Positions 11,335 through 34,429 of a stretch of 64,000 bases of DNA are shown here, piece by piece. The translations under genes and the position numbers were made by a program. The notes beneath the pieces were generated by a model. That model worked only from the letters and a program-made list of their open reading frames with translations, had not been told where the DNA came from and made no database searches. Every line of letters begins with the position of its first letter. Within the stretch, counting starts at the first letter, position 1. The stretch lies in the NCBI RefSeq assembly GCF_030704535.1, contig NC_081807.1, forward strand, positions 847,001 to 911,000, in the 5' to 3' direction. This stretch comes from Vitis vinifera. Its lineage: Eukaryota; Streptophyta; Magnoliopsida; Vitales; Vitaceae.

Positions 11335-12049
11335 ATCCTGCATCATGATTGCTTCCCACGATTCCTCCAGGGCCATCAAAGGGGGGCCTAGCTCCCTTAT
11401 CTTTGAATTGGAAGCTAACTCGGAGTGTAGCATGTGATTCATCTCGAACCCTTTCAAAGGTGAAGTTTGAGACACCAGCCTACTGGTTGAAACCATTTGT
11501 AATTGGGTCCTCAGGGTGGGAGCCATGGAAGACGATATAGTGTATGCATCTAGTCAGGGGGCCATTTCGCGTCTCCTGGGTAGAAAGCATAATGGTTGCC
11601 TATATTGAGATGGTTCTGGCCATGGGGGTTGATAGTGTTTGAGCCAGGGGGGTGGTCTGGGACTCCACATCTTGGCCTGGACATCTGCGTGACTGACAGA
11701 GTCTCAAGAATGTCTAGGATTTCGGTGGGGTTCAGATGGTAAAAGGTCTGGAAGACTTTAATGGCAGACTCCAAGGCATCATCAAACTCATCAGTGTTGG
11801 TTTGGGAATAATGGGTAGAGCTCAGTTATCCATAACGTTGAAGGTACTGCTTCACCTTCTGGATGCCTTCCATTTTGTCTCCCTTTTTAGACCCCTTCAG
11901 ATGCTTGAAAGACCTAAAGCTCTCCAGCTTGAAGGACCCAAAGGGGGAAGTTGCCTGAGAAAGGAAAGGGAGGGGGAGGGGGAGGAGGAGGAAGAGAGAA
12001 GAAAGAACAAGATAGAGCAAGAGAGAAACTACAGGGTACCAGGCGCCAT
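11335..12049 (-). pseudogene. Broken matrixin copy, N-terminal two thirds
   Basis: The minus strand starts at the conserved ATGGCGCC (12049) and shows the signal peptide, LESFRSFKHLKGSKKGDK, the prodomain, the cysteine switch PRCGVPDHPP and the start of the catalytic domain. An insertion right after codon 3 shifts the frame, there is a stop after LQRYG, and further shifts follow, so the homology is spread over three frames. It ends near the ARPPFDGPGG-like segment. The HExxHxxGxxH site is missing altogether. It occupies the same place relative to the PPR gene as the broken matrixin at 31879 does on the opposite arm. Confidence 0.85.
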
Positions 12050-12059
12050 GGCTGACCAC

Positions 12060-12980
12060 CTTGGCATTACAACACTTCAGTTAGGTGTATTTATGAACAT
12101 TCCTTAAAAAATTATGGAAGGTGAATAATCTGTACTGTAATCTGTCTTAATTTCTTAATTAATCCAATTAACATTCTCCCAAAGTTACCATATATGGATT
12201 TGGTCCGAGGATATTCATATTCAATGCTAGATTTCAATATCAGTGGAAAGGAAAACTAAACAACCAGGCAATTGGGGAGCCTCGTGAAAGGAAAAGATGA
12301 GATTTTTTCCTTGTTTTCTTCTTTTTCTTGTTTGTTCATTTCACAAATTATCAAAAAAGTTCCCATTCGAGACTCACTACAGGTTTTGAAGATTGGATGA
12401 GATTCCCCCATAATTTTTCCTTTTGGGAATTTGTGAAGCAGTCAAAGATTTGGGAATGGTTGTGGAAATGAAGAAAATGAAAATCAATGAACCAATTTTT
12501 AGGTAAGAGAATTGTTAAAACTTTCAACTCAACTTTGTCTCATCCATCATTTTTTTTTTTAATTTTTTTTTCAATAAAACCTTTCAGCCTCATCCATCGA
12601 AACCCTAACCCTCTTCTTCAATTCCATTTTTCTCTTCTTTCCTTTTTTTTTTTTTTCATTTTTTTCATCATTTCTTTTTCCCTCTTTCCCTATAATACAT
12701 ACTAAAATTAAAAAACAAAGAAAAAAAAGAAAACATAAGAGAGAAGTGAAGGGGTATGTAGCCCTTTTGAAAATTTCAAACTTTCTTGCTAATGAATTGA
12801 AACATAGAGCCTATGAAGACTAGTGAAACCAGAGATATTCAGGAGAATTTGTTTATTATTTCATTGAGTATCAAAGGTATTTCCTGGTTAAAGTATACTA
12901 AAGAAGCTATCAAGGTAATGGAGGCATAAATTTACAACATATTCTTAAGGGTACTGATACAAAACCTGTAACTTGAAGAC
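12060..12980. other. Intergenic DNA
   Basis: No gene seen. T-rich tracts lie at 12540-12670. Short blocks such as AGGTTTTGAAGATTGG (12382 onward) recur inverted near 31530 and 32975, marking this as part of the duplicated arms. Confidence 0.6.
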
Positions 12981-12999
12981 GAAAGGTGGAATCATCAAC

Positions 13000-13460
13000 T
13001 TTTCACCCATTTTGTTGCAGCAACAAAAACAGAATTTCCTTGATGACCTCCATTGACTCCCTTGCTATTGGGTTGGGGAATTCCTCAGCCATCTTATGGA
13101 GCTTCATTTCAATGGTTCTGAGTCTTCTGACCATTCAAGTTTCACCACCTACCGCCTTCCCAGAAAAGAAAATAGCAGTTTGTAGTGAGCTGTATTGAAG
13201 AGCATATGAAGGGCAACTTCCCTTATATATCATTATACCGAGAAATTATCTGCCCTCTTATGCTTGAGCAGCTACAAGAAAAGTGTATGCTGAGATTTTC
13301 GCCTCATGAAGTTGTCTTTATTCTCAGTGTAACCAAACAATTCGAGGCTCAGCCCTGAAGGTACCCAGTAGGCAATTCTTAGAGCCATCTTATCAGGAAA
13401 TGCAGAGCCAATTCTATACCTTCCTGGCCCTCCCCATTCGAAATCTTCAATGATTTGCAA
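13000..13460 (-). other. Possible exon remnants of an unrecognised gene
   Basis: Two protein-like minus-strand segments. One runs from about 13460 to 13272 (IIEDFEWGGPGRYRIGSAFP..., then ALRIAYWVPSGLSLELFGYT) and has a preceding purine-rich context. The other runs from about 13143 to 13012 (MVRRLRTIEMKLHKMAEEF..., ending LLLQQNG and a stop). Composition and lack of stops look coding, and splice-like AG/GT sites occur between them, but I could not assign a family or link them with confidence. They lie downstream of the PPR gene on the same strand. They could be the tail of a degenerate or multi-exon gene. Confidence 0.3.
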
Positions 13461-13605
13461 TCATTTAATCACTAGCAATTTAAGACATGAATAAGCCTGC
13501 AGTAAGTTAAGAATGGAATCTGATATCTTCAATGTTATGTAGATTCCAGGACCTCCAGCCCAGATTAAAATAAGTACTTTCATTTGCTGCCAAGTTTCCT
13601 TCAAT

Positions 13606-15081
13606 TCAACTTGTAATCTCTATCCAACTGCGTCCAACATCTTTCTTTAAACCACTTTCCTTCATCAACTCCCTCAGCTGCCCAATCTCATCCCACATAC
13701 TGAATTTAGCATACATATTTGATAACAGAACATAGATCCCGACATTATGAGGATCCATCTCAAGTGCCTTGTGAGCAGCCAATTTACCCAATTCAACATT
13801 TCCAAATTCGTTGCAAGCATTAAGCAAAGCCCCCCACATTGAGATACTGTAACTGCCATTCTCTTTAAGTGTCATCTCATTCACCATCTTCCATGCCTTC
13901 TCCAACTCACCAGCCCTGCAAAGCAAATCAACTACACAACTGTAATGCTCTGGGCCAGGTTCCAATCCAAAGTCACTGACCATGGACTCAAAATACTTAA
14001 TTCCAAGTTTCACATGGCCAGTGTGTCCACAAGCAGAGATGACAGTCACAAATGCCACCCCATCTGGCCTTATCCCTTCCCTCAACATCTCTTTGTACAA
14101 CTCAATTACTTTTTCAAAATGCCCATTTCTACCACATACAGCAAGCATTGAGGTCCACAGAACAACATCTCTCTTTCTCTCCCCCTTGTATCCAAAGCCT
14201 GCCAAATTGAAGACTTGCCAAGCCTTCTCCACTGAGCCACACTTACCATACATTTCAATCAAAGAACTCTGCAAAAAGACATCAGCTTCCACATCAGAAA
14301 CCTTACGGATCACACTCCCATGAACCTGCCTACCCAATTCAATTGCGGACAGACCAGCACATGAGCGTAACATTGCTGACAATGTGAAATGATCACAATT
14401 CAAATTCAATGAACGCATCTTTCGAACGAAGTCAAGCCCTTCAACCCACAGCTTAGCCTCACCATAACCTGATAATAGTGCATTTGCACAAACAGTGTTC
14501 TTGACAGGAATTTCATCGAACACCATTGCTGCGTCATTGATAAGCGACAATTTAGCATACATATCAACCAGAGCACTACCCACAAAAACACTTGACAACC
14601 AACCTGATTTTTCAACACGGGCATGTATCTGTGCACCAAATTTAACGTTTTTCATGGAACATGAAGCCACTAAAGAACAACAAAAACTATATGTATCTAA
14701 AGGAACCCCATTGGTATGCATGAAAGAGAAGGTTTGCAGAGCCAAAAAAGAAAACCCACTTCGACAATAATCGGATAGAATCATATTGAAGGGCAATGGG
14801 TCTGTGGAGTTGATGCAGTTGAGCAAGGTGGTGAAGGTTTTAGAGTTGTTTCTATGAAGGCATGTGGTGTATGTGAAGATGAGTTTGCTCTGACAACTAA
14901 GGGAGATGAAGAGCAAGCCTGTTCTAAGTAGATGAGCATGAAGCTTCTTAATGCCTCTCACATTCTTAGTTTGAGAACAATGACGCAAGAATCCTTTGAT
15001 GGAATCGAACTTCTGTGTAGAATGCCAGTTAGACATCAATGGCGGAATCCAATGGCTTTGGGATTGCAGACCATCAATCAA
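13606..15081 (-). CDS. Pentatricopeptide repeat protein, PLS class, E type
   Basis: Intronless 491-residue PPR protein. It starts MIDGLQSQSHWIPP; a second in-frame ATG gives MSNWHST. PLS-type helical repeats are visible throughout, e.g. QIHARVEKSGWLSSVFVGSA, SSLIEMYGKCGSVEKAWQVF, VVLWTSMLAVCGRNGHFEKV and SCVVDLLCRAGELEKAWKMV. The C-terminus has an E motif (MWGALLNACNEFGNVELGK...) and the beginning of an E+ motif (KKDVGRSWIEI), without a DYW domain. PLS-E proteins bind specific organellar transcripts and usually act in C-to-U editing with a partner supplying the deaminase domain. Plastid or mitochondrial targeting is expected but not shown. A broken copy of the first part lies at 31017-31397 on the other arm, and crumbs at 43563 and 53060. 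Confidence 0.9.
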   Translation of the reverse strand: MIDGLQSQSHWIPPLMSNWHSTQKFDSIKGFLRHCSQTKNVRGIKKLHAHLLRTGLLFISLSCQSKLIFTYTTCLHRNNSKTFTTLLNCINSTDPLPFNMILSDYCRSGFSFLALQTFSFMHTNGVPLDTYSFCCSLVASCSMKNVKFGAQIHARVEKSGWLSSVFVGSALVDMYAKLSLINDAAMVFDEIPVKNTVCANALLSGYGEAKLWVEGLDFVRKMRSLNLNCDHFTLSAMLRSCAGLSAIELGRQVHGSVIRKVSDVEADVFLQSSLIEMYGKCGSVEKAWQVFNLAGFGYKGERKRDVVLWTSMLAVCGRNGHFEKVIELYKEMLREGIRPDGVAFVTVISACGHTGHVKLGIKYFESMVSDFGLEPGPEHYSCVVDLLCRAGELEKAWKMVNEMTLKENGSYSISMWGALLNACNEFGNVELGKLAAHKALEMDPHNVGIYVLLSNMYAKFSMWDEIGQLRELMKESGLKKDVGRSWIEITS

Positions 15082-15619
15082 AGTTCTCCATCACATCAAA
15101 ACGCCGTCGTATTCTGCATCTCCATCTAGAAACGCCTCCATTCCTTCCTCTGCTGAACAAAGCTGCAAGGTGTAGGGTTCTGGTTTCTCTTCGGAGGTAC
15201 AGAGAAAACGTCATTGTTTAATAAAACGGCGTTGCTTACCCTTCTCCGTTTGACATATTTCCTAATGAAACGGCGTCGTTTTAGATTCTCCGTTTCTTTC
15301 TTCCTTGCAGCTAATAAAGAATCAAGAATGTAACTGCAACTTTTTTACCTGAGAAAATCTTTGATAATCCTACTTCCATTTTCCATATGATTTGATGGGT
15401 CTAATTGTTTATCAAATATCCCAAAAAAAAATTTCATAAGAAAGAAGAAACAGAAGAGATTCTATTTGAATGTTTTGTATGGAGAGATCTGACTCTCAGC
15501 TTTGTCTATACAAAAATTTATAGATTACAATGAGTGGAAATGAAACAACCAAGTCCTCTTAATTCAAAATTTGGGACACTGGCTCACAGATCAATGTTGT
15601 TAGAGATCCTCTGCTTTCA
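15082..15619. other. PPR upstream region and SAUR 3' flank
   Basis: No gene. 15082-15300 holds the PPR leader with several AAACGGCGT-type motifs. 15420-15619 is the 3' flank of the SAUR at 15620 and reappears inverted after the SAUR at 30146 (30431-30660). Confidence 0.6.
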
Positions 15620-15904
15620 TCAGCAATTCAAACTACAAGTGACATCAATGAAGGCTTCTTCTGTGCATGGGATTGTGAGGCCTCCCCTTGGATGATCAAA
15701 CCCGAACTCTTCCTCTGCCTGACTCAATAAGTTCTGAAATGAAGGATCCTTCAAGTAAGAAACCGGCACCAGAAATCGCTTCTTCTGGTCTTCTCCCACA
15801 TAGACAGCAAAATAACCTTTTGGTACATTTTTTATCTCTCCACCCATCCGCACTCGCTGTAGGATCTGCTTAGCGTTAACGATCCCAGGCAATCGAAAGC
15901 CCAT
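15620..15904 (-). CDS. SAUR protein, A type (94 aa)
   Basis: Small auxin-up RNA protein (auxin-inducible family, like the soybean 15A/X10A group). Known family role: SAURs inhibit PP2C-D phosphatases and so keep plasma-membrane H+-ATPases active, promoting cell expansion; transcripts are rapidly induced by auxin. Seen here: [16 protein letters not shown]-terminus, then the SAUR core [13 protein letters not shown] (26-38), [20 protein letters not shown] and [16 protein letters not shown], with a short tail ending LNC. It differs by five residues from the A gene at 30146, its mirror partner across the inverted duplication. It lies upstream of the PPR gene on the same strand and forms a pair with the B gene at 17159. 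Confidence 0.95.
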
Positions 15905-16010
15905 GATTGTATGAATTCAGAAAAGTAATGGTAAGGAAAATTGTTCTCTAAGATGTCTTACGATAAGAAAACTCTGGCAGTGGGATGCCATATTTGTAGG
16001 ATGAGTGGAA

Positions 16011-16147
16011 TATATATAGAGGAAGAAAACTCTGAACGGACAGTCTTCTCAAATGGAGTTGGTGGTGAAGAGAAGTCTCTGAATAGGGTCCATCTCTGGA
16101 CATTCAACACAAGGGTTCACATGGCTTTGCCTCCCAGCTAATAATAA
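16011..16147 (-). promoter_or_regulatory. Shared SAUR promoter module (A, 15620)
   Basis: Minus strand: GCTGGGAGGCAAAGCCATGTG (16117-16137), a GGACCC-type motif, and TATATATA at 16011-16018 about 110 bp before the ATG. Confidence 0.75.
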
Positions 16148-17158: not shown

Positions 17159-17446
17159 TCATGAGCAATTCAAACTGAAAGTTAGATCAATGAAGGCTTC
17201 TTCTCTGCATGGGATTGTGAGAGCACCAAGTGGATGATCAAACCCGAACTCTTCCTCAGCTTGACTTAGCAAGTTCTGGAATGAAGGATGCTTCAAGTAT
17301 GAAATTGGAATCACAAATCTCTTCTTTTGATATTCTCCAACATAGATAGGAACATGGCCTTTAGGCACATTTGTGGACTCTGGAGAAGAAAGAATGCGTC
17401 TCAGGATCTGCTTTGCAGGAATAATCCTCTGAAAACGTATGGCCAT
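17159..17446 (-). CDS. SAUR protein, B type (95 aa)
   Basis: [19 protein letters not shown], then [33 protein letters not shown] and [16 protein letters not shown]. The true start is the ATG at 17446; the three codons before it (TTG ATA CTC) are open but not initiating. Relative to the commonest B sequence it carries S20, I34, Y39, A75 and F90. It is the first gene of the minus-strand B-A pair, with starts 1.54 kb apart. That is the same spacing as in the plus-strand B-A units. Confidence 0.95.
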
Positions 17447-17699: not shown

Positions 17700-18387
17700 C
17701 TTTTCATAGCATTCATAATGATATATATTTGTTGGTTTGCCAAGGCCTACCACAGCCAGTCTCCACCAGTACTAGTTGTGGTACATGTTAGGACACCTTC
17801 AAGTGAGAACAAACAAGTTACATTGTCATGGATTACACATAATGGTCAGATTTACAGCTTCCTCACCAGTACTCTCCCAATCTAGATGCTGTCATTGTAT
17901 TTTAAGTCTTGTGATGAACATGAACATGAACATATATTTAAAGTATGTTCACATTTCCTCAATAAAAACAGGCCTGCCCCATAAAAATTGCAGTAAATAT
18001 GATCAAACTTATCATAGGGATTTTCAGGGGAACCTTGTTAATAAACCTGCATGTCAAAATTGATCATAACCAGTTGATTTGCATGCATTTTCAAACTTCA
18101 CTTTTTGAACATAGTGAGGCATCTGTGTCAAGGAAAGGCCAATTGAGGAGAAAAAAACACAGAAGGAAAAGGACATTACAATCCTTTTATTATTTTTTTC
18201 AATCAGATATGATAATTGTGAAGCAATCCTTAATGAAATATTGAGCTTTTGGTTGACAAATTCTTACAAAGAAGAACTAGGTAAGTCAGAAATCAGTCAG
18301 TTGAAGATTCAACTGGAAGAAGTTAAGAGTATGATAGGCCTAGGCATAGATGACAGTTCAAATCCCCTTCTAGATACGGAAACATGA
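17700..18387. other. Spacer at the centre of the inverted duplication
   Basis: No gene. It lies between the divergent B genes at 17446 and 19817 and contains diverged distal B-gene flank. Confidence 0.5.
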
Positions 18388-18965
18388 TGTTAAGAAGTGT
18401 CCCAAATTCTTAATCAGTATAGATTCCTCTTTTGTAAAAAAATAGGTTGATATATTATTGTAATATTAGACTTCCTTATAGAATAAGGAAGGTTGTTGAA
18501 AATATTTCTATAAATATTGTAGGTCATGTGGGGAAAAAGTTATGAGATGGAGATGGGTTAATAAAGACTATATGGGGTGGATAGAGACGTGAAGAAGAAC
18601 GGGAGGTACCTAGTGGAGCGAGATGACTCGTGGTAGGGTAAGGATACGAAGAGTGGGGAAACATGGGATGTTTCAGCACCCAATAGTTGTATCTGGTTTT
18701 GTCTTTTGTAATGTTCTGATTCTATCATTTGTAATGTTCTCTATTGTATAGTGGAATGATTCTTTCTCATCTGTGGACGTAGGCACCCAATAGTTGTATC
18801 TAATTTTGTCCACTGTAATGTTCTGGTTCTGTCATCTGTAGTGTTTTCTATTGTATAGTGGAATGATTCTTTTTCATCCATGGACGTAAACATGATTGGT
18901 TGAACCACCTTAAAACCTTGTATTCCATTTGTGTTGATTATTTTTTTTTCTTTGTGTTCTTAATT
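18388..18965 (+). mobile_element. LTR relic, copia-like
   Basis: Begins TGTTAAGAAGTGTCCC. It contains a run typical of plant copia LTRs (TATTTCTATAAATATTGTAG, a GTGGAATGATTCTTT block, GTGGACGTA) and ends near a GAACCACCTTAAAAC segment. About 105 bp are tandemly duplicated (18674-18779 and 18780-18888). No internal retroelement genes are next to it, so it is a solo or truncated LTR. I could not fix the right end or a target duplication. Confidence 0.5.
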
Positions 18966-19569
18966 AATGATGTTTGCATCAAAGCTTCCGCCTCCATAAC
19001 ACATGAATATTTCTATCCTCTAAAGTCAGATCTAAGGCTCTTTAAATATCATATACCAAAAGGCTCTTCATGTTCCTGCAACATTTTGCAAGTCAAGACA
19101 GTGAGGCAGTCAGGCACAAAAAATAGATTATAATCAATAAATTTGGGTAGGTATTTTGGGAACATCTGTTGCAAACCAACTCAGTGTGCCCATTTATGAA
19201 TAATGCATGCCTTTTATTTTGACTTGGTGCTCCTGAACTACATCTTTCAAAGTCCATGATCTTTCTTTCGAGTTCTTTATACAGAGCATCACAGAACAAT
19301 AGCATATGATATGTTAGTTAGGCACTTAGTCAAATTTTTGTCCCCCCAGATTTAATGCTGAAATTCATACCATCACTGTGAGGAAACAAGAAACATCATC
19401 ACATGAGACAATAGCTTGTTGTTCCAGTATATCCAAATGATCAGTTGCATATAATCAGTCGGATGCAATACAAAGATAATAATTTCAAGTGGTCCTCTGC
19501 TGTTTGTTCAATTAAAGAGGCAGGCCATGGTGAAGAAACAAATATATACCAGTATGAAAGCTATCAAAA
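18966..19569. other. Distal upstream region of the B gene at 19817
   Basis: No gene. 19262-19430 (CATCACAGAACAATAGCATATG... through AACATCATCACATGAG) is a block repeated upstream of most plus-strand B genes: about 22575, 25800, 28070, 47905 and 57015. Confidence 0.6.
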
Positions 19570-19700
19570 TCTTATAATTAGTTGGGAGGCAAATCCATGT
19601 GATGCCTTGTGACATATCTCCTTCAAGGGACCCCATTGTAGTATTCTCTTCTCCACCTATTCCATTGGACTGGCCTTGTGGCATTTGTTCTATAAATACA
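19570..19700 (+). promoter_or_regulatory. Shared SAUR promoter module (B, 19817)
   Basis: GTTGGGAGGCAAATCCATGTG (19581 onward), AAGGGACCCCATTGTAG, and TATAAATA at 19691-19698. Confidence 0.75.
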
Positions 19701-19816
19701 CTTATTCCAAGGGTATACATCCACCAAGTCTCCAAGCTTTTCTTAATTCTTGTTTTTGAAAACTCTTTGAAATCCATCTCTGACCATCATTTTTCAAGGA
19801 ATTAAGTTTGAAACTC

Positions 19817-20104
19817 ATGGCCATCCACTTTCAGAGGATTATTCCTGCCAAGCAGATCCTGAGACGCATTCTTCCATCTGCAGAGTCCACAAATGTGCCC
19901 AAAGGCCATGTTCCTGTCTATGTTGGAGAGACTCAAAAGAAGAGATTTGTGATTCCAATTTCATACTTGAAGCATCCTTCATTCCAGAACTTGCTAAGCC
20001 AGGCTGCGGAAGAGTTCGGGTTTGACCATCCCCTAGGTGGTCTCACAATTCCATGCAGAGAAGAAGCCTTCATTGATCTAACTTGCAGATTGGATTGCTC
20101 ATAA
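19817..20104 (+). CDS. SAUR protein, B type (95 aa)
   Basis: First gene of tandem unit 1. The core SAUR motifs are complete ([33 protein letters not shown]). It is the most diverged plus-strand B copy here, with H4, A22, A64 (SQAAEE), R91 and D93. Translation starts at the ATG at 19817, nine bases after an in-frame TTG. The partner A gene starts 1.53 kb downstream. Confidence 0.95.
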
Positions 20105-21110
20105 GCAAGGAGGAAAATCTCACAACCACCAGCCTGAAGGACTCTGAATCTCTAACACCACTGACCCCAAAATCCAATCCCACCAATTTTGTATCATGGA
20201 GAAATAGCCCTTTTTGTAATGAGAACAATGTAAATTTCATCTACTTTTCTGTAAAGCAAGTTGACAGTCAAATTTCTTCATATTAATTGAATCTCTCTAC
20301 TTTTTCCTTATCTTCTGTTGTCCTCCAGAAGCCATTCTAAACAAGTAATTCCATCAATCTGCAGATTCATTTGCAATACAAATACTAGCAATCCAATAGC
20401 CCAATTTTTAAGTATTTGGGATTTGACAATATAAATACTCTCTCATTCTGGTTTAATTATTATGAATGTTCACTACCTGAATCAGCACTCAGCCCTAAGA
20501 AGGAAAAAATGCTCATTAAATAGGAAAAGGAAGAGTAAGTAAGCAACAGAAACTGAAAATAACTCAATTTCACTGGGTCTAGTTCGCCATGTGTTAGGTG
20601 GTCCTTTCCATAACAGCTAAAATGCCATTGTTTTTACTGCGAATATAAAAAACCAGGAAATCCTAAATGAGTCTTAGGATCAAAATCCTTCAATACTGTT
20701 TTGACTGCTTAGTTCATTTTTCATCTCTTTTATGTTTGATTCTATTGTTTTTGACAAGGACATTTGCATAATGTGATTCCTTCTATGGCAATTATTTCAA
20801 GCAACATTATCACATGAGCTGATAATTCGTGTTCCCTTTTAGTGTATGCTAGTTTCATAGACTATATATTACAGGTGGTTTCCGTGTTTATGAGAACTCC
20901 AACAAGCTTCAGACATGTACCACAGGTACCTATGGTTAGTGGAATGAATATAGTCCCTACCAGTTGGTTGTCCAAATCCAGTCATTGATAACAAGATAAC
21001 AAGTTGCTAATAATTTCGAGTGTGCTTCTCAACTTTGTTCTGTTAATTAAGCAGTAGGCCATGAATGCATCCCAGCAAAGAAATCTCAGTATGAACACCA
21101 CCCAAATCGT
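20105..21110. other. B 3' flank and distal A flank
   Basis: No gene. 20105-20290 is a 3' flank shared with other B genes (CACCACTGACCCCAAAA, CTGTAAAGCAAGTTGACAG). 20790-20990 is the distal A block (AACATTATCACATGAGCTGA..., AACAAGCTTCAGACATGTACC). Confidence 0.65.
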
Positions 21111-21236
21111 ATTATTATTTGGGAGGCAAAACCATGTGATCCCTAGTGATGAATGGACCCTATCAGAGACTTCTCTTTACCACCATCTCTGTTGAGAATA
21201 CTGGACATACAGAACTTGCTTGCTCTATATATATGC
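21111..21236 (+). promoter_or_regulatory. Shared SAUR promoter module (A, 21342)
   Basis: TTTGGGAGGCAAAACCATGTG (21118 onward), ATGGACCCTATC, and TATATATA near 21226. Confidence 0.75.
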
Positions 21237-21341
21237 TATTCATCCTGAGGATAAGGCATCCCACCAGCCAAAGTTTTCTTGTTCTAACAGATCTTAGAGT
21301 ACCATTTTCCTTACCATTACTTTTCTGAATTCATAGAAGTC

Positions 21342-21608
21342 ATGGGTTTTGGTTTGCCTGGGATGTTTGCTGCTAAGCAGGGTGCAGAATCCAAAAATGT
21401 GCCAAAAGGCTATTTTGCTGTTTATGTGGGAGAAGCCCAGAAGAAGAGGTTTGTGGTTCCAATCTCATACTTGAAGAACCCTTCATTCCAGAACTTGTTG
21501 AGTCAGGCTGAAGAAGAGTTCGGGTTCAATCATCCAATGGGAGGTCTCACAATCCCATGCACAGAAGAGGCCTTCATTGATGTTACCAGTGGTTTGAACA
21601 GCTCATAA
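21342..21608 (+). CDS. SAUR protein, A type, short form (88 aa)
   Basis: [20 protein letters not shown]: the N-terminus lacks seven residues present in the other A proteins (the ILQxVRK stretch). The SAUR core from NVPKGYF onward is complete. Coding DNA differs from the A gene at 24624 at one base only (G68 here, Ala there). Second gene of tandem unit 1. Confidence 0.95.
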
Positions 21609-22900
21609 GAGGAGAAGAGAGAGAGTCACATTGTAGTGTATAGGATGAGTAACCTCTAACACATTGACTTGTAATTTGTAAAGCAGTCCCTCCAGTTTTG
21701 AATTAAGAGGACTGGACTGTTTCATTTCCATCCATTGTAAAATTATTCTATACATTTTTCTGCAAGAACGTTGAGAGTAATATCTCTCCATATATACAAA
21801 GGTTCAAACAGAATCTCTTGGTTTCCCTTTTTTCCTGTTGATTTTGTTTCCCCTGGTTTCCACATAAAATTTGAGTAACCCGAAAAGCTCAGAAGTTTAG
21901 GCATGGATTGATGGATTAACTAGTATGCATGTGCCTATATCATAACTATTTGGGCATAATGTGATTCATTTTTCACTCAATTCAACTAAAATCAAAATAT
22001 TCAATCCAGGATTTTCTTTTCAATCACTATAAGCTGGTGAATTAACCAGATATGGAGTGACTACAAGGACCTTGGAATTTTTGGAATTATGTTGAGAATT
22101 GTCTCTAGAATTTGGGATATTAGTGAATTGTTAGACCTTAGAAATTCCGGCTTAAAAGCAAAAATCTTTTGGGAAGTCCTGTCTCAAACATTGGATCAGA
22201 GACATACTTCTGAAATTGAAGAAAAGAAATCACTAATTTATGACTCCTTCTCATCTCTTAACTGAACCCTGCATTGAAGCACTTTGGAAGTCATTTGAAG
22301 CAATTCAGCTGAAGGAAGTTATAGTATTGATGGACCTATGTATAGTCTATAGATCAAAACTTGAATCCTTCTCCTGATGAGGAAACATGAATATTTTTGT
22401 CCCCTGAGGCTAAACCTTGTGCCATAAAAATACTAAGAAAAAAATTTCTACAAATTTTGGAGTATATGTTGGAAACTAATTCAGTGTGCCCATTTATGAA
22501 TAATGCATGCTTTGTTTTTAGACTTAGGGAGTTCTTGAACTACATATTTTCAAGGTCCATAGTCTTGCTTTTGAGTTCTTTATATAAAGCATCATAGAAC
22601 AGTATCATGTGATATGTTGGTTAGGTCTTGCTTCTGTTCAAATTTTTGTCTCTGCGTATTTGATGCTGAAGCTCGGATAGTCACTGGTTCCTCACTTGTG
22701 TAGAACAAAAGACATCATCACATGAGAATATGGCTTGTTTGTTTCAGTATATCCAAATGATCAGTTGCATATATGTTATAACAGTAGGATGCGATACAAA
22801 GATAATAATTTCAAGTGGTCCTCAGCTGTCTGTTCTATCAACTGGTAGGCCATGATGAAGCAATGGATATATGACAGTATGAAAGATATGGAAATCTTAT
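21609..22900. other. A 3' flank and distal B flank
   Basis: No gene. 21609-21900 is the A-type 3' flank, nearly identical to 24891-25180. 22440-22760 is the distal B block, including ATCATCACATGAG. Confidence 0.65.
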
Positions 22901-23031
22901 AATTGATTGGGAGGCAAAACCATGTGATCCCCTGTCACATATCTCCTTCAAGGGACCCCATTGTAGTAATCCCTTCTCCATTCATTCCATCTGAGAATAC
23001 TGGCCCTATAGAATTTGTTCTATAAATATAC
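22901..23031 (+). promoter_or_regulatory. Shared SAUR promoter module (B, 23140)
   Basis: ATTGGGAGGCAAAACCATGTG, AAGGGACCCCATTGTAG, and TATAAATATA at 23021. Confidence 0.75.
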
Positions 23032-23139
23032 CTATTCTAAGGGCATACATCCACCAAGTCTCAAAGCTTTTCTTGTTTTCCAAACTCTTAGAAATCCATT
23101 TCCCACTATCAATTTTCTGAGTAACTAAATTTGAAACTC

Positions 23140-23427
23140 ATGGCCATCCGATTTCAGAGGATTATCCCTGCAAAGCAGATCCTGAGGCGCATTCTTCCAT
23201 CTCCAGAGTCTACAAATGTGCCTAAAGGTCATGTTCCTGTCTATGTTGGGGAAGCTCAAAAGAAGAGATTTGTGATTCCAATTTCATACTTGAAGCATCC
23301 TTCATTCCAGAACTTGCTAAGTCAGGCTGAGGAAGAGTTCGGGTTTGATCATCCACTGGGTGGTCTCACAATCCCATGCAGAGAAGAAGCCTTCATTGAT
23401 CTAACTTGCAGTTTGAATTGCTCATAA
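23140..23427 (+). CDS. SAUR protein, B type (95 aa)
   Basis: First gene of tandem unit 2, close to the consensus B protein with A39 ([10 protein letters not shown]). The ATG at 23140 is preceded in frame by TTG AAA CTC, which is not a start. The partner A gene begins 1.48 kb downstream. Confidence 0.95.
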
Positions 23428-24390
23428 GCAAGGAGGATAATCTCAAAACCACCAGCCTGAAGGACTCTGAATCTCTAACACCACTGACCCCAAAAACCAA
23501 TCCCATCAATTTTGCTTCATTGAGAAATAGGCCTTTTTTGTAATGAGAACGATGTAAATTTCTTGTACTTTTCTGTAAAGCAAGTTTACAGTCAAATGTC
23601 TTCATATTAATTGAATAGCTCTACTTTTTCCTTATCTTCTTTTGTCCTCCAGCAGCCATTCTGTACAAGTTAGTCCATTAATTTGCAGATTCATTTACAA
23701 TACAAATACTAGAAATCCAATGGCCCAATATTTAAGTACTTGGGATTTGACAATATAGATACTCTCTCATTCTGGTTTCATTATTATGAATGTCCACTAC
23801 CTGAATCAGCACTCAACCCTAATAAGAAAAAAAAGGCTTATTAAATAGGAAGAGGAAGAGAAAATAAGCAGCATAAACCGAAAATAACCCCATTTCACTG
23901 GGTCAAGATCGCTATGTGTTAGGTGTTCCCTTCCATAACAGCTAATCGCTATGTGTTAGGTGTTCCCTTCCATAACAGCTAAAATGCCATCGTTTTAACT
24001 GAAAATATCAAAAACCATGAAATCCCAAATGAATTTAGAATCAAAATCCTTCAATAATTTTTTGACTACTAAGTTAATTTACATTTACTTCATGTTTGAT
24101 TCTATTGTTAAACACTTTGACAAGGACATTTATATTATATGATTCCTTCTATGGCAATTATTTCAAGCAACATTATCACATGAGCTGATAATTCGTGTTC
24201 CCTTTTAGTGTATGCTAGTTTCATGGACTATGTATTGCTAGTAGTTTGTGTTTATAAGAACTCCAACAAGCTTCAGACATGTACCACAGGTATGCTATGG
24301 TTAGTGGAATGAATATAGTCCCTACCAGTTGGTGGTCCAAGTCCACAACCATTCCCAGCAAATAAATTTCTGTATGAACACCACCCAAAT
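23428..24390. other. B 3' flank and distal A flank of unit 2
   Basis: No gene. A direct repeat of about 34 bp (TCGCTATGTGTTAGGTGTTC...) occurs at about 23908-23944 and 23945-23980. 24120-24330 is the distal A block. Confidence 0.6.
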
Positions 24391-24518
24391 CTTATTATTA
24401 TTTGGGAGGCAAATCCATGTGATCCCTTGTGATGAATGGACCCTATCAGAGACTTCTCTTTGCCACCAATTCCATTGGGAATACTGGCCATACAGAACTT
24501 GCTTGCTCTATATATATT
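24391..24518 (+). promoter_or_regulatory. Shared SAUR promoter module (A, 24624)
   Basis: TTTGGGAGGCAAATCCATGTG, ATGGACCCTATC, and TATATATA near 24509. Confidence 0.75.
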
Positions 24519-24623
24519 CTACTCATCCTGAGGATATGGCATCCCACAGCCAAAGTTTTCTTGTTCTAACAGATCTTAGAGTACCATTTTCCTTACCATT
24601 ACTTTTCTGAATCCATAGAAGTC

Positions 24624-24890
24624 ATGGGTTTTGGTTTGCCTGGGATGTTTGCTGCTAAGCAGGGTGCAGAATCCAAAAATGTGCCAAAAGGCTATTTTGC
24701 TGTTTATGTGGGAGAAGCCCAGAAGAAGAGGTTTGTGGTTCCAATCTCATACTTGAAGAACCCTTCATTCCAGAACTTGTTGAGTCAGGCTGAAGAAGAG
24801 TTCGGGTTCAATCATCCAATGGGAGCTCTCACAATCCCATGCACAGAAGAGGCCTTCATTGATGTTACCAGTGGTTTGAACAGCTCATAA
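24624..24890 (+). CDS. SAUR protein, A type, short form (88 aa)
   Basis: Near twin of the gene at 21342: one base differs in 267, giving MGALTIPC instead of MGGLTIPC. It carries the same seven-residue N-terminal deletion. Second gene of tandem unit 2. Confidence 0.95.
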
Positions 24891-26120
24891 GAGGAGAAGA
24901 GAGAGATTCACATTGTAGTGTATAGGATGAGTAACCTCTAACACATTGACTTGTAATTTGTAAAGCAGTCCCTCCAGTTTTGAATTAAGGGGACTGGACT
25001 GTTTCATTTCCACCCATTGTAAAATTATTCTATACATTTTTCTGAGAGAAATTTGAGAGTAATATCTCTCCATACAAAAGTTCAAAAAGAATCTCTTGGT
25101 TTTCTGTTTTTTTTTTTTCCTGTTGATTTTATTTCCCATGGTTTCCATTTAAAATTTGAGTAACCCAAAAGGCTCAGAAGTTTAGGCATGGATTGGTGTA
25201 TTGACCAGTATGCATGTGCCCATATCATAACTATTTGGGCATTATGTGATTTATTTTTCACTCGAGTCAACCAAAATCAAAATATTTAATCCAGGATTTT
25301 CTTTTCAATTACTATAAGCTGGAGAATAAACCAGATATGGAATGGCTACAAAGACCTTGGAATTTTTTGAATTATATTGAGAACTGTTTGTAGGATTTGA
25401 GATATTAGAGAATTGTTAAACCTTAGATATTCAAGCTAAAAAGCACTAATCATCTGGGAAATCACTGTCTCAAACATAGGATCAGAGACATACTTCTGTT
25501 GAAGAAAAGAAATCACTATTTTATGATTCCTTCTCTTGTTATTTCTTAGCTAATCCCTACATTGAAGCACTTCAAAAGCTAGAAGCAACCCGTTCCAAGT
25601 AATTCAGCTGCAAGAAGTTATAGTATTGATAGACCTATGTAAAGATGAGAACTTGAATCCTTTTCCCGATAAGGAAACATGAATATTTTTGTCCCCTGAG
25701 GTCAAACTTTGTGCCATAAAAATTTGTCTAGAATTTTTAGAGTATATGTTGGAAAACAATCCAGTGTGCCCATTTATGAATGATGCATTCTTTGATTTTC
25801 TTTGTGTAGAGCATCACAGAACAATATCATGTGATATGTTTTTAATGTCTTGCTTCTGTTCAAATTTTCCTCTCTGCGTATTTAATGCTGAAGCTCGGAT
25901 CGTCACGGGTTGCTCACTTGTGCAAAACAGGAAACATCGTCACATGAGAGTACATCTTGTTTGTTTCAGTATATCCAAATGATCAGTTGCATATATGTTA
26001 TAACAGTAGAATGCAATACAAAGATAGTAATTTCAAGTGGTCCTCAGCTGTCTGTTCTATCAACTGGTAGGCCAAGATGAAGCAATGGATATATGAAAGT
26101 ATGAAAGATATGGAAATCTT
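24891..26120. other. A 3' flank and distal B flank of units 2/3
   Basis: No gene. Same succession of conserved blocks as 21609-22900, with the distal B block shortened around 25790. Confidence 0.6.
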
Positions 26121-26252
26121 ATTATTGGTTGGGAGGCAAAACCATGTGATCCCCTGTCACATATTTCCTTCAAGGGACCCCATTGTATTAATCCCTTCTC
26201 CATTCATTCCATCTGAGAATACTGGCCCTATAGAATTTGTTCTATAAATATA
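26121..26252 (+). promoter_or_regulatory. Shared SAUR promoter module (B, 26361)
   Basis: GTTGGGAGGCAAAACCATGTG, AAGGGACCCCATTGTA, and TATAAATATA at 26243. Confidence 0.75.
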
Positions 26253-26360
26253 CCTATTCTAAGGGCATACATCCACCAAGTCTCAAAGCTTTTCTTGTTT
26301 TCCAAACTTTAGAAATCCATTTCCCACTATCAATTTTCTGAGTAACTAAATTTGAAACTC

Positions 26361-26648
26361 ATGGCCATCCGATTTCAGAGGATTATCCCTGCCAAGCAGA
26401 TCCTGAGGCGCATTCTTCCTTCTCCAGAGTCTACAAATGTGCCCAAAGGGCATGTTCCTGTCTATGTTGGAGAAACTGAGAAGAAGAGATTTGTGATTCC
26501 AATTTCATACTTGAAGCATCCTTCATTCCAGAACTTGCTAAGTCAGGCTGAGGAAGAGTTCGGGTTTGATCATCCACTGGGTGGTCTCACAATCCCATGC
26601 AGAGAAGAAGCCTTCATTGATCTAACTTGCAGTTTGAATTGCTCATAA
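26361..26648 (+). CDS. SAUR protein, B type (95 aa)
   Basis: First gene of tandem unit 3. Consensus B protein except E40 (GETEKKRF, shared with the B gene at 28622). The ATG at 26361 is used. No A coding region follows in this unit; only a promoter relic remains at 27335. Confidence 0.95.
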
Positions 26649-27334
26649 GCAAGGAGGAAAATCTCAAAACCACCAGCCTGAAGTACTCTGAATCTCTAAC
26701 ACCACTGACCCCAAAAACCAATCCCACCAATTTTGAAACATGGAGAAATAGGCCTTTTGTAGTGATATCAATGTAAAATTCCACCATTTTTCTGTAAAGT
26801 GAGTTTATAGTTGAATTTCTTCATATTAAAAGAATAGCTCTTTTCCCTTATCTTATTTTGTCCTCCAGCATCCATTCAATATAATAAGGTATTCCATTGT
26901 TTGCAGATTCAGTTGCAATAAAAATACAGATGCTCTCTCATTCTGGTTTCATTATGAAGAATGCCCACTACCTGAATCAACACTCAGCCTGAATAAGAAA
27001 GAAAGGCTTGATAAATAGGACGATTAATTAATCAAGGAAACTGAAAGTAACCCTATTTTCACTGGGTCAAGTTTGCTATGCATTAGTTGTTTCTTTCCAA
27101 AATAGCCAAAATGTCATCATTTCTTCTATGTTTCTCTCTGCTGTTAAAAACATTGACAAGGACATTTGTATGATATGATTTCTTATATGGCTATTATTTC
27201 ATGCAACATCATCATATGCCACACGTCTGTTAGAGCTACTGGAATGAATATAGTCCCTGCCAGTTGGCTGATCCAAATCCACAGTAAGCCAAGACGAATC
27301 CTGGCAAATAAATTTCAGAATGAAAACTACAGCA
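26649..27334. other. B 3' flank and distal A flank of unit 3
   Basis: No gene. 27160-27290 matches the distal A block (ACTATTTCATGCAACATC..., GGAATGAATATAGTCCC), shortened. Confidence 0.6.
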
Positions 27335-27560
27335 ATCTTATAGCTGGGAGGCAAACCCATGTGAACCCTTGTGTTGAATGTCCAAAGATGGACCCTATTA
27401 GAGACTTCTCTGGACTCTGTATATATTCTACTCATCATAAGGATATGGCATCCCACTGTCAAAGTTTTCTTATCCCAAGACATCTTTAAGAACCATTTCT
27501 TGTTATAGTCTGTATCCATTCAAAATCAAAACAGAACATAACTCAATTTCTGTCATGAAG
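27335..27560 (+). pseudogene. Ghost A-type SAUR: promoter without gene
   Basis: AGCTGGGAGGCAAACCCATGTG, GATGGACCCTATTAGAGAC and the ATATATTCTACTCATC leader all align with working A promoters. After the leader (AAGTTTTCTTATCCCAAGAC) the expected ATGGG... coding sequence is absent. An ATG at 27554 opens only a few codons that do not resemble SAUR. The coding region was deleted between the leader and the next unit. Confidence 0.75.
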
Positions 27561-28384
27561 TTAGAGATGTCTATCTTAAAGAAAAAACTTTGCCAAGGGT
27601 GCTTTTTCAAAAGGTTGATTTGCATAGTGCTGTTTTAAATGTACCTAGGCCTACTTTACAAGGGAAAAAAAAAATTAAGCTACGAATATGATCTTCCTTT
27701 TGTCTTCTTCATTTTCATCATTTGAGCTTTTCCCCTTTCCTTGAACTATAAATGACGGTGCTTTTATTTTGAAGACCTGCATCCCTCAGTCAAACTTGAT
27801 GAAGAACCCTCGAAAAACATTGTACTAACATTTTCTAGATAAGAAAAACAGGAATAGTTTGTCTTCAATGGTAAAATTTGAGACTCTTTTAAATATCAGA
27901 AACTTGAAAGCAGTAAGGATCAGAAAACCAAGAATAATCAATAAATTTGTCTAGGTATTTTGGGAGCATATGTTGCAATCCAACTCAGAGTGCCCATTTA
28001 TGGACGATGCATGCTTTGCATTTAGACTTGGAGTTCTTGAAGTTCTTTCATTGTCTTGCTATTGAATTCTTTATATAAAGCATCATAGAACAATACCATA
28101 TGATATGTTGGTTAGGTGATTCCATTCAAACTTTCTTCTGCTAGATTTAATGCTGAAGAGTGAGGACCATATCATCACTGTTTCTTCACTTGCATAGAAC
28201 AAGAAACATCATCACATGAGAATATAGCCTTTTTGTCCAATATGTCCTAATGATCGGGTGGATGTATGTTATAATGAAATACAAAAATAATGATTTCAAG
28301 TGGTCGTCTGCTGTTTGTTATATTCAGTGGTAGGCCATGATGAAGCAACGGATATATGACAGTATGAAAGGTATCGAAATCATA
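27561..28384. other. Distal flank of the B gene at 28622
   Basis: No gene. 27940-28240 holds the distal B block (CATCATAGAACAATACCATATG, ACATCATCACATGAG). Confidence 0.6.
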
Positions 28385-28621: not shown

Positions 28622-28909
28622 ATGGCCATCCGATTTCAGAGGATTATCCCTACCAAGCAGATCCTGAGGCGCATTCTTCCTTCTCCAGAGTCCACAAATG
28701 TGCCCAAAGGCCATGTTCCTGTCTATGTTGGAGAAACTGAGAAGAAGAGATTTGTGATTCCAATTTCATACTTGAAGCATCCTTCATTCCAGAACTTGCT
28801 AAGTCAAGCTGAGGAAGAGTTCGGGTTTGATCATCCACTTGGTGCTCTTACAATCCCATGCAGAGAAGAAGCCTTCATTGATCTAGCTTTCAGTTTGAAT
28901 TGCTCATGA
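28622..28909 (+). CDS. SAUR protein, B type (95 aa)
   Basis: First gene of tandem unit 4. It carries T11, E40, A75, A89 and F90. A75 and F90 are shared with the minus-strand B gene at 17159, its mirror partner, which supports the inverted-duplication reading. The partner A gene starts 1.52 kb downstream. Confidence 0.95.
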
Positions 28910-30145: not shown

Positions 30146-30430
30146 ATGGGCTTCCGCTTGCCTGGGATTGTTAATGCTAAGCAGATCCTGCAGCGAGTGC
30201 GGATGGGTGGAGGGGTAAAAAATGTACCAAAAGGTTATTTTGCTGTTTATGTGGGAGAAGACCAGAAGAAGAGATTTCTGGTTCCGGTTTCATACTTGAA
30301 GGATCCTTCATTTCAGAACTTATTGAGTCAGGCAGAGGAAGAGTTCGGGTTCAATCATTCAAGGGGAGGTCTCACAATCCCATGCACAGAAAAAGCCTTC
30401 ATTGATGTCACTTGTAGTTTGAATTGCTGA
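30146..30430 (+). CDS. SAUR protein, A type (94 aa)
   Basis: [20 protein letters not shown], as in the mirror gene at 15620. The five differences are G23, V24, N70, S72 and K83. K83 replaces an acidic residue in the usual TEEAF motif. It is followed downstream by the broken PPR copy, just as the gene at 15620 is followed by the intact PPR gene. Confidence 0.95.
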
Positions 30431-31016
30431 TGAAAGCAGAGGATCTCTAACAACATTGACCTGTGAGCCAGTCTCCACAATTTTGAATTAAGACGACTTG
30501 GTTGTTTCATTTCCACTCATTGCAATCTATAAATTTTTGTATAGACAAAGCTGAGAGTCAGATCTCTCCATACAAAACATTCAAATAGAATCTCTTCTGT
30601 TTCTTCTTTCTCATGAAATTTTTTTGGGATATTTGGGACATTTGATAAACAATTAGACCCATCAAATCTTATGTAAAATGGAAGTAGGATTGTCAAAGAT
30701 TTTCTCAGGTAAGTAAAAGAGTAGCAGTTAAATTGTATGTTCCTGTGTTAGCTACTTAGCTGCAAGGGTACAGCTTGATTCAGGAAGAAAAAAAACGGAG
30801 AATCTCAAAAACGACGCCATTTCATTGGAAATATAGAAAACGGAGAAAGTGAAGCACTGCCGTTTTGTTAGTAAAATTTAAACGGAGAAAAGTAAACAAT
30901 GACGTTTTCTCGGTGGCCTTGGAGTGAAACGAGAACCCTCCACCTGGAGTCAGGAATGGAGGCATGTATGGATGGGGATTCCGAATACGATGTCGTTTTG
31001 ATATGATGAAGCACTT

Positions 31017-31397
31017 TGATTGATAGTCTGCAATCCCAAAGCCATATTGGATTCCGCCATTGATGTCCAACTGGCATTCTACACAGAGGTTTGATTCCAT
31101 GAATGGATACTTGCATCATTGTTCTCAAACTAAGAATGTAAGATTCATTAAGAAGCTTCATGGGCTTCTACTTAGAACAGGCTTGCTCTTTATCTCCCTT
31201 GGTTTTCAGAGCACCACATGCCTTCATAGAAACAACTCTAAAACCTTCACCACCTTGCTCAACTGCATCACCCCACAAAGTCATTTCCCTCCGATATGAT
31301 TCTATCCGATCATTGTCGACATGGGTTTTCTTTTTTGGCTCTGCAAACCTCTCTTTCATGCATACCAATGGGGTTCCTTTAGATACATATCATTGAT
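31017..31397 (+). pseudogene. Broken PPR copy (N-terminal fragment)
   Basis: Matches the first ~125 codons of the PPR gene at 15081: the leader, SNWHSTQRFDSM, HCSQTKNVRFIKKLHG, LLRTGLLFISL, TTCLHRNNSKTFTTLLNC and FMHTNGVPLDTY. The start ATG is TTG here, and a frameshift near 31265 moves the homology to another frame. A small deletion removes part of the QSKLIFTYTTC stretch, and homology stops at 31397. The rest of the gene is absent. Confidence 0.85.
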
Positions 31398-31632
31398 TGA
31401 TTTCCATTTTCTTACCTAAAATTTGGTTAATGGATTTCCATTTTCGATCTTCATTTCAACAACTATTCCCGGATCTTTGACTAGTCCACAAATTCTCGAA
31501 AGGAAAAATCACGGAGGAATCTTAACCAATCTTCAAAACCTGCTTGTTACAAAGAGAACTGATGTAGTGAGTCTCAAATGTGTACTTCTATGATAATTTC
31601 TTAAATTAAGGTTGATGATCAAAGATTACATA

Positions 31633-31669
<37 letters not shown>

Positions 31670-31878
31670 TTTTCTTTTCTTTTCTGGACAATCACCTATT
31701 TGGTTAGTTTTCCTTTACGGCAACATTGAAACATACATACCCTCAGTCTAACTCTATATACAGCAATGTTGAGAGAATCAAGACAGGCTACAATACAGAT
31801 TATTCATCTTCCATAATTTTCTGAGCAATGTTCATAAAAACACCTAATGGAAGTGCTGCAACGCCAAGGTGGTCAGCC
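31398..31878. other. Spacer with AAT microsatellite
   Basis: No gene. Microsatellite (AAT)n at 31632-31669. Short blocks are shared inverted with 12360-12400. Confidence 0.6.
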
Positions 31879-32447
31879 ATGGCGCCTAGGGTTTCTCTCC
31901 TGTTGTCGTTGGTTCTTTCTTCTCTCCTCCTCCTCCTCCTCCTTTTCCCTTCTCGGGCAACTTCACCCTTTGGGTCCTTCAAGCTGGAGAGCTTTGGGTC
32001 TTTCAAGCATCTGGAGGGATCTGAAAAAAAGGAGACAATTACAAAGGGTTTTGACGCATGGGCTGGTGTACCAAACTTCACCTTCGACAGGGTTCGAGAT
32101 GAAATATTTGCTAAAATCCGAGTTTACTTCCAAGTCAGGGATAAGGGAACACTGCGCTACCCCTTGATGGGCCTGGAGGAATCTTGGCTTACGCCGAATC
32201 ATCATTGAATAATGCAACCATCCATTTCCATGGAGAAGAGGAGTTGGGGATGGCTCATTTCCAGACTGTACTGATTTGCAGACTGTTGCTACCCATGAAC
32301 TAAGCCATATTCTAGGACTTGCTCACAGTCAAGTTCAGGATGTCATCATGTATCCGTACATTGAGTCAGGACAGGTCAAGCATTTCACTCAATTTTCTGA
32401 GGTAACAAGATCACCCCAATATTATTTCCTCATAGAAATCAACTATT
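31879..32447 (+). pseudogene. Broken matrixin copy lacking most of the prodomain
   Basis: Starts like the intact gene (MAPRVSLLLSLVLSS..., with an expanded Leu run in the signal peptide). It runs through KHLEGSEKKE and then jumps directly to TITKGFDAWAGVPNFTFDRV. The deletion removes most of the prodomain and the whole cysteine switch. A frameshift at GTLRYPLMG closes the frame. Beyond it the other frame shows HELSHILGLAH (Gly to Ser between the zinc histidines) and a Met-turn-like VIMYPYI, then diverges before DDIDG. Confidence 0.85.
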
Positions 32448-32639: not shown

Positions 32640-32757
32640 AGCCCGTTTAATAGTGATTTTAATAAACACTTTTAATCTTTCTAATATTTAAAATTTTTTA
32701 TCATTTAAATGTTAGAAATATTAAAAACTTTTTTAGAATCACTCTTAAACTTATTTT
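32640..32757. repeat. MITE-like hairpin element
   Basis: About 120 bp with imperfect terminal inverted repeats: TTTAATAGTGATTTTAATAA at the left against the complement of TTTTTAGAATCACTCTTAAA at the right. The AT-rich interior is itself foldable (TCTTTCTAATATTTAAAA against TTTAAATGTTAGAAATATT). The form is typical of small hAT-like plant MITEs. It has no coding capacity. Confidence 0.55.
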
Positions 32758-33122
32758 AAATTATGAAGAGATTATTAAAAGAATGTGGGTTTAACAATTT
32801 TTTTAATTAAAAATTGGTAAAAATTGATTTTGATTTTCTTCATTTCCACAACTTTTCCCCAGTGTTTGACTGGTCCTCCTTTCATTTAATCCTCAGGCAT
32901 CAACAATTGATCAAATGGTCAAACAATCCTCAAGAAATTCTCAAAAATGGAAAAACTATGGAGGAATAATATTCTTATCAAATCTTCAAAACCTTCTGTT
33001 AATGGACCTTTATATAGTCTGTTAAATAATTAAAATAAAATAAAATAAAAGGTTGATAATGGAAGATTGCATGCATAGAAATATTTTTTTATTTTGGAAA
33101 TTGGAAGACATGATTTCCTTCC

Positions 33123-33125
<3 letters not shown>

Positions 33126-33159
<34 letters not shown>
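33126..33159. repeat. (AAT)n microsatellite
   Basis: About eleven AAT units. Confidence 0.9.
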
Positions 33160-33541
33160 TTTTTTATGTTTTTCTTTAATTGAAAATGAGAAGAAATTAA
33201 TATAACCCTTTGATTCTTGAACAGCAATTTCAATATTTCGTGACAGAATTACTAATCCTGAATTAACCTTCATGACTTTGTGTTGATTCTTCCTAGAAAC
33301 TCCATATGTTGCCAACATTTTGGGTAGCTTTCCTTTCCACTTATACTAAAATCTAGCAATATCCTCAGACCCAAGTCCTTATATGGTAATAATGTTTGGA
33401 TAATCCCAGTTGGATGAATTAAGAAATCAAGACAGGCTGCAATACAGTTGCACTGATCATTCACCTTCCATAATTTTCCGAGGAATATTGCCTATAAAAT
33501 GATCACCTAATTGGAGTCATGTAACGCTAAGGTGGTCAGTC

Positions 33542-34429
33542 ATGGCGCCTAGGGTTTCACTCCTGCTCTTCATTCTTTCTTCTCTCCTCCTCCCTTTCCT
33601 TTCTCAGGCAACTTCTTCAAGCCCCTCTCGCGTCGGGCCTTTCAGGCATCTGGAGAGCTTTGGGTCTTTCAAGCATCTGGAGGGGTCTAAAAAGGGCGAC
33701 AAAACGGAAGGCATCCAGATGGTGAAGAAGTACCTTGAACATTACGGCTACTTGAGCTCTACCCATTATTCCCAAATGGATAGTGATGATTTCGATGATA
33801 CCTTGGAATCTTCCCTCAAAGCCTTTCAGACCTTTTACCATCTCAAGCCCACTGGAAGCTTAGACGCCCCAACAGCCACCCTGATGTCCAAGCCTCGATG
33901 CGGGGTCCCGGACCACCCCACAAGCTCAAACAGTATTAACCCCCAGTATACTATCGACCCAGGGAGCGTGAAATGGCCCCGCGATCAGATGCATATCCAC
34001 TATATCATCTTCCCAGACTCCCACCCAGAGGAGCCAATCACAAGGGGTTTTCAAGCATGGACCACTGTTTCAAACTTCACCTTCGAGAGGGTTCGAGAGG
34101 AATCATTTGCTAAAATCCGAGTTTATTTCCAAGTGAGGGATAAGGGAACTGCACCACCCCTTGATGGGCCTGGAGGAATCTTGGCTTACGCCGGTCCATC
34201 ATTAACTAATGCAACCATCCATTTCGATGGAGAAGAGAATTGGGTGGAAGGTGCAGTTGCTGATTCTTTTGATTTGCAGACTATTGCTACCCACGAAGTA
34301 GGTCATCTTCTAGGACTTGGGCACAGTCGAGTGGTGAAAGCCAACATGTATGCTTATACGGGTACTGCAGAGACGAAACCTTTGATTCAGGATGATATCG
34401 ATGGCATTAGAGCTAAATACAGCACTTGA
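33542..34429 (+). CDS. Matrix metalloproteinase (matrixin, M10A), intact
   Basis: Intronless 295-residue paralogue of the gene at 2500. Signal peptide (about 1-24), prodomain (about 50-115), cysteine switch PRCGVPD (118-124, C120), catalytic HEVGHLLGLGH (H251, E252, H255, H261), Met-turn at M269, C-terminal DDIDGIRAKYS. In the structural-metal region it reads QVRDKGTAPPLDGPGGILAY and NATIHFDGEENW. The His-x-Asp strand (H227, D229) is present, but the usual HGDG His and the LAHAF His are replaced (Tyr in LAYAG). The C-terminus is not hydrophobic, so secretion rather than GPI anchoring is likely. Several Asn-x-Ser/Thr sites are present. The start is the ATG in the conserved GGTCAGTCATGGCGCC context. 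Confidence 0.92.
   Translation: MAPRVSLLLFILSSLLLPFLSQATSSSPSRVGPFRHLESFGSFKHLEGSKKGDKTEGIQMVKKYLEHYGYLSSTHYSQMDSDDFDDTLESSLKAFQTFYHLKPTGSLDAPTATLMSKPRCGVPDHPTSSNSINPQYTIDPGSVKWPRDQMHIHYIIFPDSHPEEPITRGFQAWTTVSNFTFERVREESFAKIRVYFQVRDKGTAPPLDGPGGILAYAGPSLTNATIHFDGEENWVEGAVADSFDLQTIATHEVGHLLGLGHSRVVKANMYAYTGTAETKPLIQDDIDGIRAKYST

Follow-up and report, generated by a model that had tools for sequence, protein, structure and literature searches.

Inverted pairing of two matrixin-PPR-SAUR arms

The stretch analysed here (the window) comprises 64,000 nucleotides of the grapevine Vitis vinifera (contig NC_081807.1, in the following C3, positions 847001-911000), in which a block made up of a matrixin gene, a pentatricopeptide repeat (PPR) gene and two auxin-response (SAUR) genes, A and B, occurs twice in opposite orientations. 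One copy (left arm) lies on the minus strand and the other (right arm) on the plus strand, and the two are separated by a centre that holds further SAUR genes (Table 1). Genes are named by their class and their first position in the window. The studied region consisted of the window plus 20 kb to the left and 30 kb to the right (114 kb), and genome-wide matches were sought in 495,616,077 bases on 21 contigs. The four SAUR genes of the arms match PF02519 (Auxin_inducible) at 81.4-85.0 bits (curated Pfam cut-off 26.3 bits), while the left PPR gene carries three stretches of PF13041 and one match to PF20431 (70.1 bits), i.e. PPR repeats and an E motif. The intact matrixins 2500 and 33542 reach 90.8 and 107.1 bits with PF00413 (Peptidase_M10; curated cut-off 24 bits).

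In a self-comparison, window positions 14689-17753 aligned to 31390-28327 on the opposite strand over 3194 columns at 82.2% identity (3235 bits), which is the anti-diagonal between the arms that a first-pass annotation of the sequence had proposed. Chance similarity as the source of this match was ruled out by 20 shuffles of the left arm, with non-overlapping dinucleotides permuted, none of which scored above 35.6 bits in the 114 kb region. Every 300-base segment of the left arm starting between 14700 and 17100 found its best partner in the right arm, and the flank pairs named in the first-pass annotation fall on the same alignment (left 15615-15327 with right 30435-30734 at 94-96%; left 16351-16213 with right 29686-29835 at 96%). 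Upstream of B, the homology on the left stops at 17752. Collinearity picks up outward at the first matrixin, where left 11900-12512 pairs with right 31406-32011, and the order of B, A, the 5' part of the PPR gene and the upstream region of the first matrixin (M1) is the same on both arms with directions opposite. Left positions 12512-14689 have no counterpart within the 114 kb region, which leaves the right arm about 2.2 kb shorter here, with the PPR gene cut down to its 5' quarter. This agrees with the earlier observation that the PPR gene is intact on one arm only.

Collinearity, the sister relationship of the A genes and the similar divergence along the arms (both below) support the inverted duplication of the matrixin-PPR-A-B block, which is real. 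Calling it large was generous, as the matched sequence comes to some 3 kb, with roughly 0.6 kb more at the first matrixin. The core block and the loss of the PPR gene on one arm stand as first described, while the inclusion of matrixin 33542 and the pairing of B as a whole gene do not.

Table 1 Features of the two arms and the centre, in window positions
Feature	Position	Strand	Evidence or remark
Intact matrixin M3L, beyond the paired block	2500..3363	-	PF00413, PF01471
Remains of matrixin M2L, split by Copia (pieces 11118-11026 and 4671-4201)	4201..11118	-	tblastn
Broken matrixin M1L, left arm	11351..12000	-	tblastn pieces with stops; upstream pairs with right arm
Intact PPR gene with E motif, 476 amino acids, left arm	13606..15036	-	PF13041, PF01535, PF20431
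A SAUR, 94 amino acids, left arm	15620..15904	-	PF02519; sister to 30146 in three trees
B SAUR, 95 amino acids, left arm	17159..17446	-	PF02519; 3' part sister to 28622, upstream with 19817
Centre between the arms	17753..28326		Unmatched spacer, then three B-A' units
B SAUR, 95 amino acids, right arm	28622..28909	+	PF02519, trees
A SAUR, 94 amino acids, right arm	30146..30430	+	PF02519, trees
PPR relic, 5' quarter, frame-broken	31063..31390	+	tblastn; sole partner in the 114 kb region is the left PPR gene
Junction of the ~2.2 kb deletion	31390..31412	+	Left 12512-14689 unmatched
Broken matrixin M1R, probable deletion fusion	31834..32392	+	5' part with M1L, 3' part with 33542
Intact matrixin M2R, without age-matched left gene	33542..34429	+	PF00413

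Kinship of the A and B genes

Trees of 10 A and A' genes, built separately from upstream, coding and downstream sequence, placed A15620 and A30146 as sisters in all three cases (support 100/98, 100/100 and 100/100), in line with the close relationship that had been assumed. Five of the 94 residues differ between their proteins, the number given previously. For gene B the pattern is less uniform. The combination of alanine at residue 75 and phenylalanine at residue 90, on which the original pairing of B17159 with B28622 was based, is indeed found in these two of the 14 B genes compared and in no other, and the A'-type gene 24624 likewise has alanine at the position equivalent to 75. In the tree of 14 B genes for the 3' coding part plus 230 bases downstream, the left and right B genes were joined with support of 99/98, and the downstream sequence alone joined them with 88/89. 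A grouping of left B with 19817 was rejected for the 3' part (p value of the approximately unbiased test, p-AU, 0.0175; 13 genes), a value that is optimistic because the groups to be tested were chosen once the first trees had been seen. The pairing therefore holds for the 3' part but not for the promoter, as the 5' flanks are unpaired. Judged from these trees, gene B is a mosaic in which the 3' part follows the arms and the promoter does not.

The centre adjoins left B with a spacer of about 1.3-1.35 kb (17753-19105) that has no match in the 114 kb region. Beyond the spacer lie three units on the plus strand, the direction of the right arm, namely B19817-A'21342, B23140-A'24624 and B26361 with an A' remnant. 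A'21342 and A'24624 are intact SAUR genes of 88 amino acids (PF02519 at 84.8 and 84.2 bits) that the first-pass annotation had missed. Within the spacer, a 107-base direct repeat is present in two copies (18676-18888).

Divergence along the block and age

Between the arms, the overall Kimura two-parameter distance (K2P, in the following K) is 0.138 over 3008 compared sites. It amounts to 0.181 in the 3' flank of B, 0.181 between B and A and 0.169 upstream of the PPR gene, and to 0.223 over 559 sites in the upstream region and start of M1. The A pair shows a synonymous divergence (dS) of 0.201 (0.085-0.325) and a nonsynonymous divergence (dN) of 0.023, a dN/dS ratio of about 0.11. At these four noncoding stretches and the silent sites of A, putatively neutral divergence thus lies close together (K 0.17-0.22, dS 0.20), as a single event would predict, while K is lower next to A and higher upstream of B (below). 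At substitution rates of 2.5e-9 to 1.3e-8 per site per year, K of about 0.19 would make the duplication roughly 7-38 million years old.

PPR copies and relics

Across 287 shared columns, 3 changes are unique to the left PPR copy, 28 to the right relic and 12 to a further copy on contig C5. The right-hand figure of 28/287 is about half of the neutral K, which is expected if the relic has decayed since soon after copying. At the deletion junction, 13 bases (31399-31411) are repeated at 31433-31445, which hints at templated filler, although the repeat overlaps with homologous sequence and proves nothing.

The C5 copy (C5:6239628-6240902) matches at 97.3% over 894 and 98.6% over 357 bases without the flanking block and is a separate, later event. 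An old PPR relic of 65 amino acids at 43635-43829 and its copy at about 53102-53257 lie in two larger repeated SAUR units. The four genome-wide matches of this relic are itself and its copy, the C5 copy and PPR 13606, the latter two at 38-40% identity. As the relics match solely these PPR sequences, an earlier copying of the same matrixin-SAUR border into the array is probable. The PPR gene could hence serve to trace in which order duplications took place.

Matrixins and the direction of copying

The right broken matrixin has a split kinship. Its upstream region and start join M1L (94/93; 78/84 in a tree without the gene at 805 kb of C3), its 3' part joins 33542 (95/94; 95/93 without the 805 kb gene), and tblastn shows an internal gap. 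The split kinship and the gap point to a deletion that fused two neighbouring matrixins, and M1R is probably such a fusion. The intact matrixin 33542 had been counted into the same event. Its dS is 0.408 (0.304-0.536) to its nearest left gene, matrixin 2500, 0.419 to the 805 kb gene and 0.447 to a gene at 827 kb, about twice the A value of 0.20, so that its membership in the duplication event is not supported. On the left arm, M2L is probably outside the copied block.

Genome-wide, 34 matrixin matches were found, 20 of them on C3. Of these 20, 15 are on the minus strand, all at 775-859 kb and left of the centre, and the 5 plus-strand matches are all in the right arm. This distribution makes it likely that the right arm was derived from the left one.

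Two further observations concern the left matrixins. The genes at 2500-3363 and C3:805458-806324, both intact, show a dN of 0.077 and a dS of 0.057 between them, and the ratio of 1.35 may reflect relaxed or positive selection. A young Copia retrotransposon (4674-11028) has an intact frame of 1357 amino acids, and its two long terminal repeats share 99.5% identity over 618 columns. It was inserted in a matrixin that was already broken and lies between the two copies of its 5-base target duplication, CCCAC (4669-4673 and 11029-11033).

Origin of the inverted block

The arrangement is probably the product of a single segmental inverted duplication inside the SAUR array. An original block with B, A, PPR and M1 on the minus strand would have lain at the border between the matrixin array and the SAUR array, and a copy of it would have been inserted in reverse beyond the first SAUR units. 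A loss of ~2.2 kb in the right copy, reaching from within the PPR gene, of which the 5' quarter was spared, to the M1 promoter, would have followed. Trees and gaps further suggest that the right matrixin was fused with its neighbour through an internal deletion. Both copied SAURs stayed intact, leaving two more SAUR genes and one PPR gene. For the molecular step, replication-based template switching or fold-back break repair is the likeliest class. Inverted duplications ascribed to these processes resemble the grape block in having two opposite copies with a spacer (PMC3907307). However, the cases treated in that paper are human copy-number variants, whereas the grape event is old and its breakpoints are worn, so that the mechanism cannot be read from the arms.

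Several observations weigh against a single inverted copy. In the 300 bases upstream of B (13 genes), left B joins 19817 (90/91), and a clade of left and right B is rejected for the promoter (p-AU 0.032, optimistic for the reason given above). Matrixin 33542 is older than the event (dS 0.41 versus 0.20 for A). Both the left-to-right direction and the number of steps are inferred from a comparison within one genome. Divergence is also uneven, with K of 0.100 upstream of A, 0.079 in the A 3' flank, 0.084 in the PPR 5' coding part and 0.310 upstream of B. Such unevenness could arise if the arms formed a palindrome homogenised by gene conversion, in which case the age would be underestimated, but this seems highly improbable. 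Noncoding K is 0.061 near A versus 0.196 farther out (Fisher 4e-13, the limits of the low-K island having been chosen after the data were seen), a near/far ratio of 0.31 as opposed to 0.67 and 0.59 in the control pairs A54-A62 and A'21-A'24. The 3' half of B, which also fits conversion, has 1 synonymous change over 29.7 sites and is too short for judging. The three other control A pairs have ratios of 0.39, 0.39 and 0.39, and gene-near constraint can therefore explain the dip. Moreover, the silent sites of A are no less diverged than the outer noncoding parts, and as they do not take part in the dip, constraint is favoured over conversion as its cause.

The possibility that no specific event took place, and that the likeness stems from SAUR units of the same family lying in both directions, deserves practically no weight. 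In the array part of the region (from 13 kb onward), 13 of the 43 listed matches of at least 1 kb are indeed inverted, but the other 12 reach 71-76% and less than 800 bits, while the arms, whose match includes PPR and matrixin sequence, form the sole inverted pair when the listed matches of at least 1 kb are restricted to the 21 that exceed 1000 bits. This unique score and the sister A genes refute the idea. A two-step origin, in which a direct tandem duplication was followed by inversion of one copy, for instance through recombination between inverted SAURs, is unlikely, although the present data do not separate it from a single step. Inverted pairs for such recombination exist, as the 26 SAUR matches at 862-922 kb of C3 divide into 14 on the plus and 12 on the minus strand, and the mosaic B gene at the inner edge would fit; however, no sign of a direct copy is left and one extra step is needed. 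Also unlikely is the copying of a larger block with several matrixins, followed by loss or replacement of the genes that paired with 33542 on the left. One matrixin follows another outward of the PPR gene on both sides and 33542 joins the left matrixins with 95/95 in a tree rooted on C14, but its dS of 0.41-0.45 to all three left genes tried speaks against a shared age with the A pair.

Apart from how the single duplication arose, the arms could perhaps act as a live substrate for inversion, and recombination between the inverted B genes might have inverted the 10.6 kb centre at some earlier time, a very doubtful proposition. If true, it would account for the mosaic of B, whose 3' part follows the arms and whose promoter follows other units. 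Grapevine haplotypes might then carry the centre in either orientation, and the pairs of SAUR promoters that face each other would differ between them.

The SAUR array in context

The duplication is real but an ordinary case of gene-family duplication in an array of mixed direction. At the same time, it is a clear example of a SAUR array growing through a backward copy of its border, with non-SAUR genes dragged along, and the SAURs remained intact on both arms while the passenger genes decayed. SAUR proteins have been described to promote cell expansion by inhibiting PP2C.D phosphatases (PMC9522268), and the lasting effect of the duplication is likely one on SAUR dosage or finer expression.

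A study of grape reported 29 SAURs for chromosome 3 and ascribed three clusters, located on chromosomes 3 and 4, to tandem duplication (PMC8584205). Clusters on C3 and C4 are also seen here. The main text of that study does not use the terms inverted, orientation, pentatricopeptide or metalloproteinase and does not describe the inverted block. Literature searches likewise returned no description of the present block, while the SAUR cluster itself is published. As the same study links a SAUR to berry size (PMC8584205), the arrangement could be of local use in annotating or cloning grape SAURs. The C4 array, which is directly repeated, belongs to the same Pfam family and is of comparable size, but differs in direction, with 25 of 25 SAUR matches at 18.17-18.25 Mb on the minus strand where the C3 array is mixed. 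No second PPR-matrixin block was found by blastn in the C4 array (90 kb) or at 735-765 kb of C3 among the best 8 matches each.

To the right of the arms, composite units of about 9 kb are repeated directly at 84-89% identity, from 41075 through the window end at 64000 up to about 72.5 kb. Each contains A and B on the plus strand, and a B and a degraded SAUR on the minus strand. The degraded minus-strand SAURs represent a third type, of which each unit has one remnant, and lie at 39112-39231, 43338-43447, 52778-52894 and 61130-61327.

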